64,000 bases of DNA from Armatimonadota bacterium (GCA_031459765.1 JAVKHY010000003.1:248001-312000); one strand, 5' to 3'. Counted from the first letter of the stretch, positions 38,838 to 44,695 are shown. Program-made: numbers and translations. The notes: generated from the sequence alone by a model not told the origin.

Positions 38838-38868
38838 TTGACAGGGCTCTTCCGAACAGTGGTACAGT
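38838..38868 (+). promoter_or_regulatory. Promoter of the LexA-box operon
   Basis: Perfect -35 TTGACA (38838-38843), 19-base spacer, -10 TACAGT (38863-38868). Predicted transcription start is about 38875, immediately before the operator. Confidence 0.65.
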
Positions 38869-38876
38869 GAGGAAGG

Positions 38877-38902
38877 GGATAGCGAACATTTGTTCGTTAT
38901 CC
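38877..38902. promoter_or_regulatory. LexA (SOS) operator
   Basis: The core CGAACATTTGTTCG (38883-38896) matches the Firmicutes/Actinobacteria SOS box CGAAC-N4-GTTCG. It is extended outward to a 26-bp near-perfect palindrome (GGATAG...TTATCC arms, one mismatch pair outside the core). Bound LexA would cover the transcription start of the operon that follows. Confidence 0.85.
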
Positions 38903-38928
38903 ACTTTCCCCTCGCCGGAGGGCCCTTC

Positions 38929-39567
38929 ATGCTTGCGGTGCGCAGCTCCCTTCCCGAAATCGCCGCCGGCCCCGCCGTGTTCGCCGGTGAGGACGCCTGT
39001 CTGACCGTTGCCCTGTTGATCGGTCTGCGCGGGGTGCGCGCGCAGCGGCCGCTGCTGATCGTGGACGGGGCCAACGCCTTCGACCCCTTTCTGATCGCCG
39101 ACCTCGCCCGAAAGTCGGGGGTGGCGCCCCGGGCCCTGCTGGATCAGATCCGCATCTCCCGCGTCTTCACCTGTCACCAGCTGGAGGCGCTGCTGCGGGG
39201 GCGCCTGCTGGAGGCGGTCCGGCGCTTCCACGCCGGCGCGGTATATTTCTCAGGGATCCTCGACCCGCTGCTCGATGAGGAAGTTCCGGCGGGGGAGGCC
39301 GGCCGGATCTTCCGGCTGATCCCGCCGGTCCTGCGCGCGCTGGCCGCCTCCCGCATCCTGACGCTGTGCGCCTGCCCGCCGCCGGTCTCCAGGCCGGGAC
39401 GCGAGCGCCTGTTCCCCGCGCTGTGCGGGGCGGCGCGCTGGGTGTTCGAGGTGACCCGTGGGGCGGACCATCCCGACCACATCCGCATCACCTGCCGCCG
39501 GCCGGCGGAGGCCACCTGGACGTGGGAGCCGCAGATCGGGCTGATCGCCCCGCGAAGGTGGTGGTAG
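38929..39567 (+). CDS. RecA-fold protein lacking Walker A, SOS operon gene 1 (ImuA-like position)
   Basis: A 212-residue protein. LLIVDGANAFDPFLIADLARKSG and LDQIRISRVFTCHQLEALL match the Walker B strand and following elements of RadA/RecA-like ATPases (compare the RadA ...YIDTE.TF... and ...ARAYTSHQ... segments). No GxxxxGKT/S P-loop is present, so ATP hydrolysis is unlikely. The ATG at 38929 follows CGGAGGGCCC. The product probably binds an active RecA or DNA and delivers the polymerase encoded two genes downstream, as proposed for ImuA or the RadA-like partners of archaeal PolB2. The role is inference, the fold moderately sure. Confidence 0.72.
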   Translation: MLAVRSSLPEIAAGPAVFAGEDACLTVALLIGLRGVRAQRPLLIVDGANAFDPFLIADLARKSGVAPRALLDQIRISRVFTCHQLEALLRGRLLEAVRRFHAGAVYFSGILDPLLDEEVPAGEAGRIFRLIPPVLRALAASRILTLCACPPPVSRPGRERLFPALCGAARWVFEVTRGADHPDHIRITCRRPAEATWTWEPQIGLIAPRRWW

Positions 39568-39572
39568 TAGCG

Positions 39573-39935
39573 ATGGGACGCACCACGCAGACGATGACGC
39601 AGCTGGTGGCGCAGGAGGAGGCCTGCTGGGCCCCCTTCCGCCGCGCGCTGCGCAAGGAGGACCAGCGGATCTTCGACCGGCTCTTCGCCGCGGCGCGCCA
39701 CCACACCGCCCCCGCGCACTACGCCTCGCACGCGACGCCCTTCGAGGCGATCCTGCTGGCGATGCTCCTGGAGACGATGAAGGCCGTGGAAGCGCTGGGA
39801 CGCCGGCTCGATGCGCTAACCGGAGAGGACCAGGTCCCTTCGCTCGGCGAGGCGTCCATGCCCCATTCGGGTCATGCCGCGTCTTCGGCCCGCAACTCGG
39901 TGCGAACCGAGTTGATGCCGAACGCCGACGATTGA
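39573..39935 (+). CDS. Small helical protein, SOS operon gene 2
   Basis: A 120-residue mostly helical protein (RKEDQRIFDRLFAAARHHTAPAHYASHATPFEAILLAMLLETMKAVEALGRRLDAL) with a flexible, polar C-terminal 30 residues. It has no recognisable catalytic motif. It is placed five bases after the RecA-like gene and three bases before the polymerase gene, so all three are one transcription unit. It may be a subunit or adaptor of the polymerase. The frame is open upstream, but the ATG at 39573 fits the tight operon spacing. Confidence 0.72.
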   Translation: MGRTTQTMTQLVAQEEACWAPFRRALRKEDQRIFDRLFAAARHHTAPAHYASHATPFEAILLAMLLETMKAVEALGRRLDALTGEDQVPSLGEASMPHSGHAASSARNSVRTELMPNADD

Positions 39936-39938
39936 CCC

Positions 39939-42197
39939 ATGGGCGGCATTGAGGGCCGCGCACTCGAGGGTTGGCTGTTCGACGTCTACCCCGCCGCCGA
40001 GGGCATGGTGGTATGGGTCCTCGACCGTGACGGCCGCCCGCACCGCCTGATCGTGCGCTACCAGCCGGGGATGTTCTTCGCCGGACCCCTGCGCGCCGTC
40101 GAGCAGGTGGAGCGCGCGCTGCGTCCCCTGAACGCGCCGGTGACCATCCGCCCGGCCGTCCAGCGCGAGTTGATGAGCGGGGAGGAGGTGGCGGTCTTCC
40201 GCCTCTCGGTCGGCAATCCGCTCCTCTTTCCCGCCGCGGCGCGGCGGCTGGCCCGCCTCCCCGGGCTGACGCTGTACAACTGCGACATCCCGGTCAGCCG
40301 GCTGTTTTTCTACGAGTCCCGATTGTTCCCGCTAGCCCGCTGCCGGTTCGAGGTCGAAGACGGCGTGGCACGCGCCGTGGAGCCGCTCAGCCATCCCGAG
40401 GATTTGGAGTACGACCTCCCGCCGCTTCTGACCCTGCGGCTGCGGCTCGTCTCCCCCCTCCGCGGCGACGCGCTGGCGAGCCCCGCGCACGGCCGGTGGG
40501 GGCTGCTGGAGGCGGGCGTGGACGGCGAGACCGTGGTGGTGGACGGCGACGATCCCGCGGACTGTATCCGCAGCCTGAACCGGCTGCTCGCCCGTTACGA
40601 TCCCGACGTGATCCTCACGGAGTGGGGGGATGCCGTCCTCCTGCCGCGCCTGCGCGCGCTCGCCGCCCGCAGCGGCTTGCCGCTCTATCTCAACCGGGAG
40701 CCGCACGGCGCGGTGCGCACCCGCCGCCCGCGTTCCTATCTGACCTACGGCCAGGTCGTCTATCAGGCCGGGGCGCAGATGCTGTACGGCCGCTGGCACA
40801 TCGACCTCCAGAACTCCTTCATCTACAGCGAGGGCGAACTGGCCGGGCTGCTGGAGGTGGCGCGGCTGTCCGGGATCCCGGTGCAGGACCAAGCCCGCAC
40901 CTCCACCGGGACGGCGATCAGTTCCATGCAGATCCAGCAGGCGGTCCGCGACGGCGTGCTCATCCCCTGGCAGAAGAGCGAGCCGGAGGCGTTTAAGACC
41001 GGCTCCCAGCTGCTCCTCACCGACAAAGGCGGGCTGACCTACCAGCCGCTGGTCGGGCTGTACGAGCAGGTGGGCGAACTTGACTTCTCCTCGATGTACC
41101 CGACGCTGATGGCGACGTTCAATCTCTCTCCCGAGACGATCGGCTGCCGGTGCTGTCCGGACTCCCGGGTGCCCGAGATCGGCTACAGCGTCTGCCGCCG
41201 CCGCCGCGGGCTGGTGCCGCGCGTGCTGGACCATCTCCTCGAACGGCGGATGTATTACAAGCGGCGCAGGAATGAGAGCCGCGGAGCGCAGCGCGCGCTC
41301 TACCACCAGCGGCAGACGGCGCTGAAGTGGTGTCTGGTGACATCCTTCGGCTACCTCGGCTACCGCAACGCCCGCTTCGGCCGCATCGAGGCCCACGAGG
41401 CGGTGACGGCCTTCGCCCGCGAGAAGCTCCTGCAGGCCAAGGAGGTGGCGGAGCGGCGCGGCTACCGCCTGCTGCACGCCCTGGTGGACTCGCTGTGGTT
41501 GCACCGTCCCGGCGCCACGCGGGAGGACTACGACGCGCTGGCCGGCGAGGTCACGCAGGCCACGGGGTTGCCGATCTTCGTCGAGGGCGTCTACCGCTGG
41601 CTCGGGTTCCTGCCGTCCAAAACCCACGCCGGCGTCGGCGTCCCCAACCGGTACCTGGGCGTCTTCGAAGACGGCACGACGAAGGTCCGGGGCATCGAGG
41701 TCCGGCGTTCGGACGTGCCTTTGATCGCGGCGGAGACACAGGCCCGGATGCTGGAGCGGATGTTCGCCTGTCGGGATCTGGCGGCGCTGCGCGCCGCCCT
41801 GCCCGAGGTGCTCGAGATCCTGGCCGAGGCCCTGCTGCGGCTGCGGACCGGGGAGGTCGCGCCCGAGGAGTTGGTGGTGACCACGCGCCTGTCCCGGGAG
41901 GTCGCCGACTACCGGCACCACACCGTGCAGGCCGTCACGGCGCGCTCGCTGTCCCGCCACGGCGCCCGTCTCCATCCGGGGGAAGCGATCCAGTACATCA
42001 TCACCGACCGCAGGGCGAAGGCGCCCGAGGACCGCGTGCGGCCCTGCACGTTGCTCGGCGACGACTGGAGCTACGATGCCGACGACTACGCGCGGATGGT
42101 CGTGCGGGCGGCCGGGACGGTGCTGGATCTTTTGGGGTACGGCGAGGACCGGCTGTGGCGGGAGATGTGGACACGCCGGTCCCCGGAGGGACCGTGA
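39939..42197 (+). CDS. Degenerate family-B DNA polymerase (PolB2-like), SOS operon gene 3
   Basis: A 752-residue PolB-fold protein. Polymerase motif A is intact (D382 in ELDFSSMYPTLM). Motif B keeps K463 but reads V and F where KxxxNxxYG has N and Y. Motif C reads ALVDSLWL in place of YGDTDS, so only the second Asp (D517) remains. The exonuclease motifs are missing: no DIE in the first strand (LLTLRLRLVSP), and a weak motif II (LTEWGDAVLLP). ARTSTGTAISSMQ resembles the archaeal RTSTG-type element. It looks like the exonuclease-dead PolB2 clade, whose archaeal members are linked to damage tolerance. Activity cannot be decided from sequence, since D382 and D517 could still bind metal. Confidence 0.82.
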   Translation: MGGIEGRALEGWLFDVYPAAEGMVVWVLDRDGRPHRLIVRYQPGMFFAGPLRAVEQVERALRPLNAPVTIRPAVQRELMSGEEVAVFRLSVGNPLLFPAAARRLARLPGLTLYNCDIPVSRLFFYESRLFPLARCRFEVEDGVARAVEPLSHPEDLEYDLPPLLTLRLRLVSPLRGDALASPAHGRWGLLEAGVDGETVVVDGDDPADCIRSLNRLLARYDPDVILTEWGDAVLLPRLRALAARSGLPLYLNREPHGAVRTRRPRSYLTYGQVVYQAGAQMLYGRWHIDLQNSFIYSEGELAGLLEVARLSGIPVQDQARTSTGTAISSMQIQQAVRDGVLIPWQKSEPEAFKTGSQLLLTDKGGLTYQPLVGLYEQVGELDFSSMYPTLMATFNLSPETIGCRCCPDSRVPEIGYSVCRRRRGLVPRVLDHLLERRMYYKRRRNESRGAQRALYHQRQTALKWCLVTSFGYLGYRNARFGRIEAHEAVTAFAREKLLQAKEVAERRGYRLLHALVDSLWLHRPGATREDYDALAGEVTQATGLPIFVEGVYRWLGFLPSKTHAGVGVPNRYLGVFEDGTTKVRGIEVRRSDVPLIAAETQARMLERMFACRDLAALRAALPEVLEILAEALLRLRTGEVAPEELVVTTRLSREVADYRHHTVQAVTARSLSRHGARLHPGEAIQYIITDRRAKAPEDRVRPCTLLGDDWSYDADDYARMVVRAAGTVLDLLGYGEDRLWREMWTRRSPEGP

Positions 42198-42354: not shown

Positions 42355-43734
42355 GTGCGACAACGGCGGAAGTCTCGGGGTCGAACCGGGCGACGCGCGA
42401 CGGTTCGCATCGCCCTGGCCGGGGGGCTGGTGGCTGTCGCCCTCATCGCCACGCTGTCTCCGCTCGCCGCCGCCGCGGTGGAGGAGGCGGTGGTGCGCGA
42501 AGAGGCCCGCCGCGTGACGGCGCAGGTGGAACGCCTCGTCGCCACCGCGTTTGCGTCGGAGGAATTCCGCAGCGGCGTCCGTCCGGCCACCCGGCGCCGC
42601 CTCGATGCGCTCCTCTCCACATCCGGCACGGTGGGCGTGGTCCAGGTGCGGTTGTGGAGCCGCGACGGACTCCTCCTCTACAGCAGCACCGGCGGCGCGG
42701 TCGGACAGCGCGCTCCCGTGTCGGAGGGACTGCGGGCGGCGGTCCGCGCCTTCGTCGGCGCGACTCCCGCCTACGCCTCCCTGCCATCCACCGTGCGCCC
42801 CTTCACCTCCGACACGATGTACCTGTCCGCCGAAGGGTACCTGCGCTACCTGGCCTTCCAGCAGAACCAGGTCTGGCTCGCCGCGGCCGTGCGCGCCGCC
42901 TCGCCCAAGACGGTGGTCGCCCACAGGGCGGAGAGCGGGACGGCGCGGTTCTACCTGCCCGCCCGCGCCAGCGGCGCGACGGTGCCGGCCGGCGCCTTCG
43001 AGGTCTCCTACGACTTTCGCCCGCTGGAGCGGAAGGTCGCGCAGCTCCAGCGCGGGGTGTGGACGGGGATTCCCAGCGGCATCTTGACCCTCTACGGCGC
43101 CCTGCTGGCGCTGGTGGTGGGCGGGCCCGCCCTGCCCATGCGCCGCCGCGAGGACCAGGAGGCCGTGCACTACGGCGTGTTCCGCGCTCTGGCCAGCGCC
43201 GTGGATGCCCGCGACGGGGAGACCGGCGATCACAGCGGGCGGGTGGCCTCCTACGCCGTGGCCATCGGCCGGCGCCTGCGGTTGTCCGGCGACGCCATCG
43301 CCGAGTTGAGCCTGGCCGCGGCGTTGCACGACATCGGCAAGATCAGCGTGCCCGATGCGGTGCTGCGCAAGACGGGGCCGCTGACGCCCGAGGAATGGGG
43401 GCTGATGCGCCGCCACGCCGTCGTCGGCAGCCGGATCCTCCACGACGCGCCTTTCGGCGAGGCGGTCAAACAGGCCGTGCGCCACGTCCACGAGTGGTGG
43501 AACGGCCGCGGCTATCCCGACCGCCTGAAGGGAGAACAGATTCCGCTCTACGCGCGGATTCTGGCCGTGGCCGACGCCTTCGAGGCGATGACCTCCGACC
43601 GGCCCTACCGGTCGGCGCTGTCACCGGAGGAGGCGCTGGCCGAGTTGAGCCGCATGCGCGGCGTGCAGTTCGATCCGCAGATCGTCGATCTCTTCTCGGA
43701 GTGGGTCAGGGGGGTCGCGCCGGCGACTCTGTGA
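42355..43734 (+). CDS. Membrane HD-GYP c-di-GMP phosphodiesterase
   Basis: A 459-residue sensor. An N-terminal membrane helix (about 18-40), an extracytoplasmic domain (about 45-225) and a second membrane helix (about 235-258) precede an intact HD-GYP domain. HDIGKISVPD carries the HD pair, VHEWWNGRGYPDRLKGEQIPLYARILAVADAFEAMTSDRPYR carries H-x-GYP, and D-F-A-M follows. It should hydrolyse c-di-GMP, unlike the degenerate protein at 18132. It starts with GTG after AGGAAACCT and overlaps the convergent DUF72 gene by 29 bases. Confidence 0.92.
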   Translation: MRQRRKSRGRTGRRATVRIALAGGLVAVALIATLSPLAAAAVEEAVVREEARRVTAQVERLVATAFASEEFRSGVRPATRRRLDALLSTSGTVGVVQVRLWSRDGLLLYSSTGGAVGQRAPVSEGLRAAVRAFVGATPAYASLPSTVRPFTSDTMYLSAEGYLRYLAFQQNQVWLAAAVRAASPKTVVAHRAESGTARFYLPARASGATVPAGAFEVSYDFRPLERKVAQLQRGVWTGIPSGILTLYGALLALVVGGPALPMRRREDQEAVHYGVFRALASAVDARDGETGDHSGRVASYAVAIGRRLRLSGDAIAELSLAAALHDIGKISVPDAVLRKTGPLTPEEWGLMRRHAVVGSRILHDAPFGEAVKQAVRHVHEWWNGRGYPDRLKGEQIPLYARILAVADAFEAMTSDRPYRSALSPEEALAELSRMRGVQFDPQIVDLFSEWVRGVAPATL

Positions 43735-44695
43735 GCATGGCCAGGATCTCCCGGGCGTTGCGGGCCGACTGTCCCCGGTAGTGGTTGTTGAACAGCAGGA
43801 AGATCCGTTCCACCTCGGAGCCCAGGCTCTGCACCGTGTGCACCCAGGGCCGGAGCTCCTCTGCCGTGTACAGATAGTCGTAGACCCGGCTGGTGGGCGC
43901 GCGGCATTCGAGCATCGCCGGGTTCCGGCCGTGGAAGCGGACGACACTCCACGGTGCCGTCACCTCCACATCGCTGGGCGGCAGGTAGGCCTGCGCCAGC
44001 AGGTCGGGGATCACGTAGGCATATCCGCGGCGTCGCAGATAGGAGAGGAGCTCGGAGCGGTGGGGTTCCTCCAGCCATTCGCGGTGGCGGATCTCGACGG
44101 CCACCGGCCAGCGGCGCAGGTACGGTTCCCAGCGGTCGAGATGCCTGAAGAGGTCCGGCGTGTACCTGCGGCCCTTGGGGAACTGGAAGAGCACGTGGGC
44201 CAGCCGGCCCTCCCGAACGAACTCCTCCAGGAAGGCGGCGAAGTAGTCCCACAGGGCGTGGAGGATCTCCTCCGGGAGGTGCGCCGCCTCCACCTCGGTG
44301 GCGGCGGCCAGCGCAGGAGGCAGGAGGGCCAGGATCTCCGGAGGCAACCGGCGCGGATCGGTGGCGTGCCAGGTGAACAGGGCGAAGGCCTTCACCGCGA
44401 AGATGAAACCCGAGGGCGTCCACCGGACCCACTTCGCCGCCCGATCCGGGCTCTGCAGGGCGTGATAGGTGGCGTCCACTTCGACCGTGGGAAAGACCGT
44501 GGCGTAGTAGCGGAGGCGGCGCTCGGGATCGTTGCGCACGCTGCGGGGGTAGAATCCCCCTTCCCTGACGAAGTTGGGATCGGCCCAGGAGCAGGTTCCG
44601 ACGTAGACCGCACAGCGTCCGACGGTCACGGGACGGGCGGGCCGATCGAGGTCGAGGGGCACCGAAGGGACCACAGAGAGTGATTCGATTGACAC
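43706..44695 (-). CDS. DUF72 family protein
   Basis: A 329-residue TIM-barrel-like DUF72 (YecE-type) protein. Its marks are CAVYVGTCSWADPNFVREGGFYP near residue 28, YYATVFPTVEVDATYHALQSP, FIFAVKAFALFTW and HVLFQFPKGRRYTPDLFRHLDRW. It is widely conserved but uncharacterised, possibly a metal- or nucleic-acid-related enzyme. The 3' end overlaps the HD-GYP gene in convergent orientation. A start further in (near VTVGRCAVYVG) is also possible. Promoter not identified. Confidence 0.9.
   Translation of the reverse strand: MSIESLSVVPSVPLDLDRPARPVTVGRCAVYVGTCSWADPNFVREGGFYPRSVRNDPERRLRYYATVFPTVEVDATYHALQSPDRAAKWVRWTPSGFIFAVKAFALFTWHATDPRRLPPEILALLPPALAAATEVEAAHLPEEILHALWDYFAAFLEEFVREGRLAHVLFQFPKGRRYTPDLFRHLDRWEPYLRRWPVAVEIRHREWLEEPHRSELLSYLRRRGYAYVIPDLLAQAYLPPSDVEVTAPWSVVRFHGRNPAMLECRAPTSRVYDYLYTAEELRPWVHTVQSLGSEVERIFLLFNNHYRGQSARNAREILAMLTESPARPP

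Follow-up and report, generated by a model that had tools for sequence, protein, structure and literature searches.

A predicted LexA-repressed iRadA-PPB2-PolB2 operon in an Armatimonadota bacterium and its alternation with imuA-imuB-dnaE2 within one order

The bacterial operon encoding the B-family DNA polymerase PolB2 was noted by Makarova et al. (2014), with a lexA gene inside the operon in Leptospirillum (PMC4104785), and was later analysed as a mutasome with the gene order iRadA-PPB2-PolB2 (Timinskas et al., 2025; PMC11791011). In the published model of the complex, a PPB2 trimer joins single copies of PolB2 and iRadA in a heteropentamer, in which PolB2 binds iRadA in the way that neighbouring Rad51 subunits dock on each other (PMC11791011). 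The same study describes lexA neighbours and reports that DUF72 and lexA genes are enriched near polB2; the word promoter does not occur in it, and ImuB and DnaE2 are unmentioned (PMC11791011). The bacterial PolB2 mutasome is group G2 of PMC12926913. The mutasome reading of this operon is not new, and what we add here are regulatory and evolutionary facts.

Three other systems invite comparison. Dpo2 of Sulfolobus, an active, exonuclease-free extender polymerase with mismatch-extension activity that underlies targeted mutagenesis (PMC8764526, PMC7390963), shares with the polymerase studied here its B-family membership, inactivated exonuclease, loss of the first aspartate of motif C, damage inducibility, and partner genes. 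Unlike the locus studied here, Dpo2 belongs to an archaeal damage response that acts through Orc1/Cdc6 homologues and not LexA, and the bacterial PolB2 proteins form a clade separate from archaeal PolB2 in the published tree. ImuA-ImuB-DnaE2 is likewise encoded by three genes in one LexA-controlled operon and pairs an error-prone polymerase with a RecA-like accessory protein; however, its polymerase belongs to the C family, its ImuB derives from the Y family, and the two systems share no polymerase ancestry. DNA polymerase II of E. coli (polB) is also B-family and SOS-inducible, but it proofreads, acts as a single subunit, and falls outside the PolB2 clade.

In the window, the whole 64-kb stretch of Armatimonadota DNA that was analysed, three plus-strand genes encode iRadA (38929-39567; 212 amino acids), an arCOG07300-like PPB2 (39573-39935; 120 amino acids), and PolB2 (39939-42197; 752 amino acids). 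The intergenic gaps of 5 and 3 bases counted in an earlier note on this DNA are exact in both the sequence and the ORF list. We conclude that this set is the bacterial iRadA-PPB2-PolB2 mutasome operon in its published gene order, the only one seen in bacteria, and a wholly unknown system was rejected because the operon has already been published (PMC4104785, PMC11791011). The locus also shares with the published operon its degenerate polymerase motifs, the MGRT N-terminus of PPB2, the D(K/R) motif, a DUF72 neighbour, and an association with lexA, although the SOS link here is an operator in the promoter region and not a lexA gene in the operon. The DUF72 gene (43706-44695, minus strand; PF01904, E = 7e-50) lies convergently, one gene downstream of the operon, and DUF72 also adjoins PolB2 at loci L039, L040, L053, and L068. 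Translation of iRadA most likely starts at the ATG at 38929, with GGAGGG at 38917-38922; the TTG at 38890, which would give a longer ORF, was rejected because it falls inside the LexA operator described below.

The first protein had been described from sequence as RadA-like without a Walker A motif, and this description is well supported. A single-sequence comparison to Pfam returned only a marginal Rad51 match (E = 0.078), but a profile of 56 iRadA homologues matched archaeal RadA in the PDB with E = 1e-9, and the best Foldseek PDB matches of an AlphaFold2 model (pLDDT 93) were all RadA, Rad51, or DMC1. The Walker A motif is absent from the iRadA sequence, and the ATPase motifs and N-terminal domain of RadA are missing, as in the published group. 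The iRadA C-terminus, EPQIGLIAPRRWW, weakly resembles QLxLF, and its QIGLI may be a candidate beta-clamp motif; clear QPxLF C-termini are seen in Chloroflexota iRadA, and only a fraction of the members of group G2 have a clamp-binding motif in PolB2 or iRadA. PPB2 has no match in Pfam or NCBIfam; its N-terminus, MGRTTQTMTQ, begins with the published PPB2 signature MGRT (PMC11791011), which is common to 76 of 87 PPB2 homologues, with M1 and G2 invariant. The PPB2 tail also contains a script-detected 9-bp inverted repeat (CAACTCGGT/ACCGAGTTG, 39893-39914) that was not found at the corresponding place in the relatives checked.

The only Pfam match of PolB2 is the polymerase domain; no exonuclease domain was matched, and the ExoI and ExoII residues were not seen. 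NCBIfam models of archaeal type-B polymerases matched best (1e-121), yet below their curated cut-offs, and structure comparison returned the archaeal PolB fold. Motif A reads DFSSMYP (D382), motif B is altered (K463-W-C-L-V-T-S-F-G), and motif C is LVDS (L515-V516-D517), in which LVD replaces DxD so that the first aspartate is lost and the second is kept. These features are as the earlier note had read them, and an alignment of nine diverse homologues showed that D382, K463, D517, and D362-K363 are invariant. Because the first motif C aspartate is lost, the sequence is compatible with what may be a low polymerase activity, and an alternative reading gives the LexA-controlled complex a structural or regulatory task, such as the protection or remodelling of stalled forks, with hardly any polymerisation. 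This reading is in line with the altered motifs B and C and with earlier papers that called the PolB2 family inactivated (PMC2527604, PMC4104785), but it is improbable, given that D382, K463, and D517 do not vary across bacterial PolB2 and that Sulfolobus Dpo2, with the same loss of the first aspartate, is a robust polymerase required for targeted mutagenesis (PMC8764526, PMC7390963). Moreover, the alternation of PolB2 with ImuAB-DnaE2 reported below suggests a polymerase role for PolB2. In the monomer model, the segment preceding D362 (about residues 346-364) is disordered and contains FKTG, which is FKTA in several relatives. Since this region was modelled as docking on iRadA in the manner of a Rad51 oligomerisation motif (PMC11791011), FKTG plausibly represents an FxxA-like motif, a reading that would fit the docking model.

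A scan of 84,980 genomes, from which the best 80 loci were taken across many phyla, bore out the conserved co-occurrence of the three genes: among these 80 loci, most with enough sequence keep the same gene order, including most such loci of the Nitrospirota, Chloroflexota, Bacteroidota/Ignavibacteriota, Methylomirabilota, and Thermodesulfobacteriota. Haloarchaeal plasmids also carry the genes together, in two of three cases preceded by a Cdc6 gene. In a phylogenetic tree, the PolB2 of the window falls inside the clade of its own order, on the side of haloarchaeal PolB2 and apart from E. coli Pol II, in agreement with the PolB2 affinity proposed in the earlier note; assignment of the polymerase to Pol II or phage PolB was rejected on the basis of this tree and the NCBIfam models. 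The archaeal side of the tree consists of three haloarchaea, and we therefore take the direction of transfer, that is, an archaeal origin of the bacterial operon, from published work (PMC4104785, PMC11791011).

Upstream of iRadA lies a predicted LexA operator, CGAACATTTGTTCG (38883-38896, plus strand), which is a perfect CGAAC-N4-GTTCG and not merely the near-perfect site first claimed; LexA of Bacillus subtilis recognises this same consensus. The operator is the only exact copy within the 64 kb and lies in the middle of an imperfect palindrome of 34 bp (38873-38906). Matches with at most one mismatch are not above chance frequency across the window, so the box taken alone proves little, and chance could well produce a single 10-base palindrome in GC-rich DNA of this length (64 kb). 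The site might then be coincidental or belong to another regulator, leaving the operon outside the SOS regulon, and the unusual -35/-10 spacing of the promoter would accord with this. However, the box upstream of iRadA is exact in every operon of families f1, f4, and f5 whose upstream sequence is complete, which makes 15 of the order's 18, and is one base off in the remaining three, which belong to family f7, against a background rate of 0.015 exact GAAC-N4-GTTC sites per 320 bp. Exactness is retained in the 15 orthologous promoters despite differing flanks and a differing box position: in family f5 the box occupies the spacer between TTGACA and TATAAT, and in family f1 it follows closely on the -10 element. 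A chance occurrence was rejected on this conservation, and placement of the operon outside the SOS regulon is very improbable.

The putative promoter, TTGACA-N19-TACAGT (38838-38868, plus strand), consists of TTGACA at 38838-38843 and TACAGT at 38863-38868. The promoter proposed in the earlier note stands in that the TTGACA-N19-TAnnnT arrangement is maintained in most relatives of the family, but it is weaker than was stated: its 19-base spacing is non-canonical, and a consensus sigma-70 scan with 16-18 base spacing found no promoter match at the operon. A possible second, degenerate LexA site, GAACAGTGGTAC (38854-38865, plus strand), overlaps the -10 element with one mismatch to GAAC-N4-GTTC and shares its GTAC variant with two sites that precede the second lexA gene of the genome, but it could be merely conserved promoter sequence. 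GAAC-N4-GTTC is mostly absent from PolB2-operon promoters of the Nitrospirota, Bacteroidota, and Ignavibacteriota, where many loci have instead a lexA gene directly upstream of the operon, as do loci of other groups.

The same box marks other genes in the host genome. Exact copies precede ruvC, dnaB, an HRQ1-like helicase gene, and a radical-SAM gene, and copies with one mismatch lie upstream of recA and both lexA genes. No clear gene start follows a sixth exact box (L033), which may be a chance occurrence. The operon thus shows the traits of an SOS regulon member, namely a LexA box in the promoter region, its retention in relatives, and lexA and recA in the genome, and we regard the operator as real because it is conserved before orthologous operons and recurs before ruvC, dnaB, and the helicase gene. 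The polymerase inventory of the host includes one DinB and one DnaE, and imuB-dnaE2 was not found. Because the single dinB gene has no LexA-type box and there is a single DnaE, PolB2 is, among the PolB2, DinB, and DnaE genes compared, the only polymerase gene found with a LexA box.

These results favour, with a probability of roughly 85%, a PolB2 mutasome that LexA represses directly. As long as the cell is undamaged, LexA would occupy the operator, which lies immediately 3' of the promoter, and block transcription. Upon damage, RecA filaments formed on DNA would stimulate LexA self-cleavage, and one transcript would then yield iRadA, PPB2, and PolB2 together, which are predicted to assemble into the mutasome. 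Lacking an exonuclease, PolB2 would extend primer ends that are mispaired or lie opposite a lesion, so that cells survive but acquire mutations, and the operon probably yields an error-prone repair polymerase. The gene order, motifs, folds, operator conservation, and non-overlapping distribution were established here, and polymerase activity, mismatch extension, and targeted mutagenesis are carried over from the literature on archaeal Dpo2 (PMC8764526, PMC7390963). All of our evidence is computational, and we found no bench study of any bacterial PolB2 in the literature searched. The proposal of the earlier note, a bacterial SOS-induced B-family mutasome, is supported: homologues of the first gene have a RadA fold, the box recurs in relatives, and the polymerase groups with PolB2 and has lost its exonuclease motifs.

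In this mechanism, the PolB2 operon would fill the role that LexA-controlled ImuA-ImuB-DnaE2 has in relatives without PolB2. PolB2 is present in 22 of 43 genomes of the order (the same count by single-protein and by profile search), imuA-imuB(-dnaE2) in 16, both in none, and neither in five; the repeat search with the profile again gave no overlap. In the imu set, a small RecA/ImuA-like gene precedes a divergent Y-family gene of about 500 amino acids, and the contig also carries a second DnaE. This set is complete in 15 genomes, and in the other (G014) only the ImuA-/ImuB-like part is assembled; family matches were checked on two representatives, and the other sets were recognised by position, length, and similarity of sequence openings. 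Fisher's exact test gives p = 7.7e-8 for the non-overlap when kinship is ignored. This distribution supports the PolB2 and imu mutasomes as functional alternatives in the order, and the archaeal-origin B-family polymerase together with this alternation supports the separate evolution from imuAB-dnaE2 that had been suggested.

The distribution comes from metagenome-assembled genomes of one order, many of them incomplete and the related ones not independent, and the non-overlap could reflect lineage history and incomplete assemblies in place of functional replacement. A DnaE tree needs only about four state changes, three of them forced by well-supported branches, so that the effective sample is small, and several genomes are below 90% complete. 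We consider this explanation unlikely, though clearly less so than the others weighed above, since both states occur inside each of two families (f5 and f7), the profile search left the non-overlap intact, and promoter architecture is common to f5 PolB2 operons and imu operons. In two PolB2 genomes (G007 and G017), a further Y-family gene with a LexA box shares its contig with a DnaE-like gene, a module that differs from the canonical imu operon and could be either real or contamination; because of it, the exclusion between PolB2 and DnaE2-type modules is not strict. In the openly searchable literature, PMC12926913 is the sole paper found with both the terms PolB2 and ImuB, and its accessible text does not discuss exclusion between PolB2 and Imu.

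We lean towards the reading that PolB2 and ImuA-ImuB-DnaE2 are interchangeable in one LexA-controlled role, having been swapped several times behind the same kind of operator and never occurring together. If so, PolB2 and DnaE2 would be functionally equivalent in SOS mutagenesis, and the resulting prediction, a common mutagenic function for two unrelated polymerases that each have a RecA-like partner, is directly testable, with genomes that hold either system behind the same promoter type forming a natural swap experiment. This shared promoter and operator type was seen in sister genomes: a LexA-type box, exact or with one mismatch and often the GTAC variant found upstream of the second lexA, is present in the promoter region of each of the 16 imu operons, and the box commonly lies between -35-like and -10-like elements (for example, TTGACTATCGAACATATGTTCGTATAAT), a design shared with the f5 PolB2 promoters.

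The PolB2 mutasome also travels on mobile elements, since genes resembling iRadA and PPB2 occur together with a PolB2 gene, in unchanged order, in the genomes of LE1-type phages. These loci are L118 and L207, which lie in the Leptospira LE1-type phages KF114879 and KF114878, together with L125 and L127.

Upstream of the Chloroflexota operons (loci L081, L083, L086, L092, and L106), we found the form GCAC-N4-GTTC, as GCACATTTGTTC or close to it, which is a candidate variant LexA box. The iRadA proteins of these same five loci end at the C-terminus in a canonical-looking clamp motif (QPxLF or QLKLF). The window's own genome contains two lexA genes, at G000:C4:228444 and G000:C1:265575 (loci L119 and L120), the second of which has two sites of the form CGAAC-N4-GTACG close upstream.

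Within the operon of the window, the non-conserved tail of PPB2 contains a perfect inverted repeat (39893-39914) whose 9-bp arms flank a loop of 4 bases, located 24 bases upstream of the PolB2 start. This repeat was absent from the equivalent position in the relatives checked.

The PolB2 of the window lacks an intein, in contrast to that of genome G001 from the same genus. In relatives, an in-frame intein lies inside polymerase motif B, adjoining the residues equivalent to T468/S469 [L012/L040 (G001); L017/L068 (G008); L019 (G013); L021 (G018); L024 (G041)]. Most of these inteins are short; the full-length copy in G008 includes a LAGLIDADG domain.

Two other genomes that carry PolB2, G007 (L209) and G017 (L210), also each have a contig that bears both a shorter, LexA-boxed Y-family gene and a DnaE-like gene, representing either a different DnaE2-type module or contamination.
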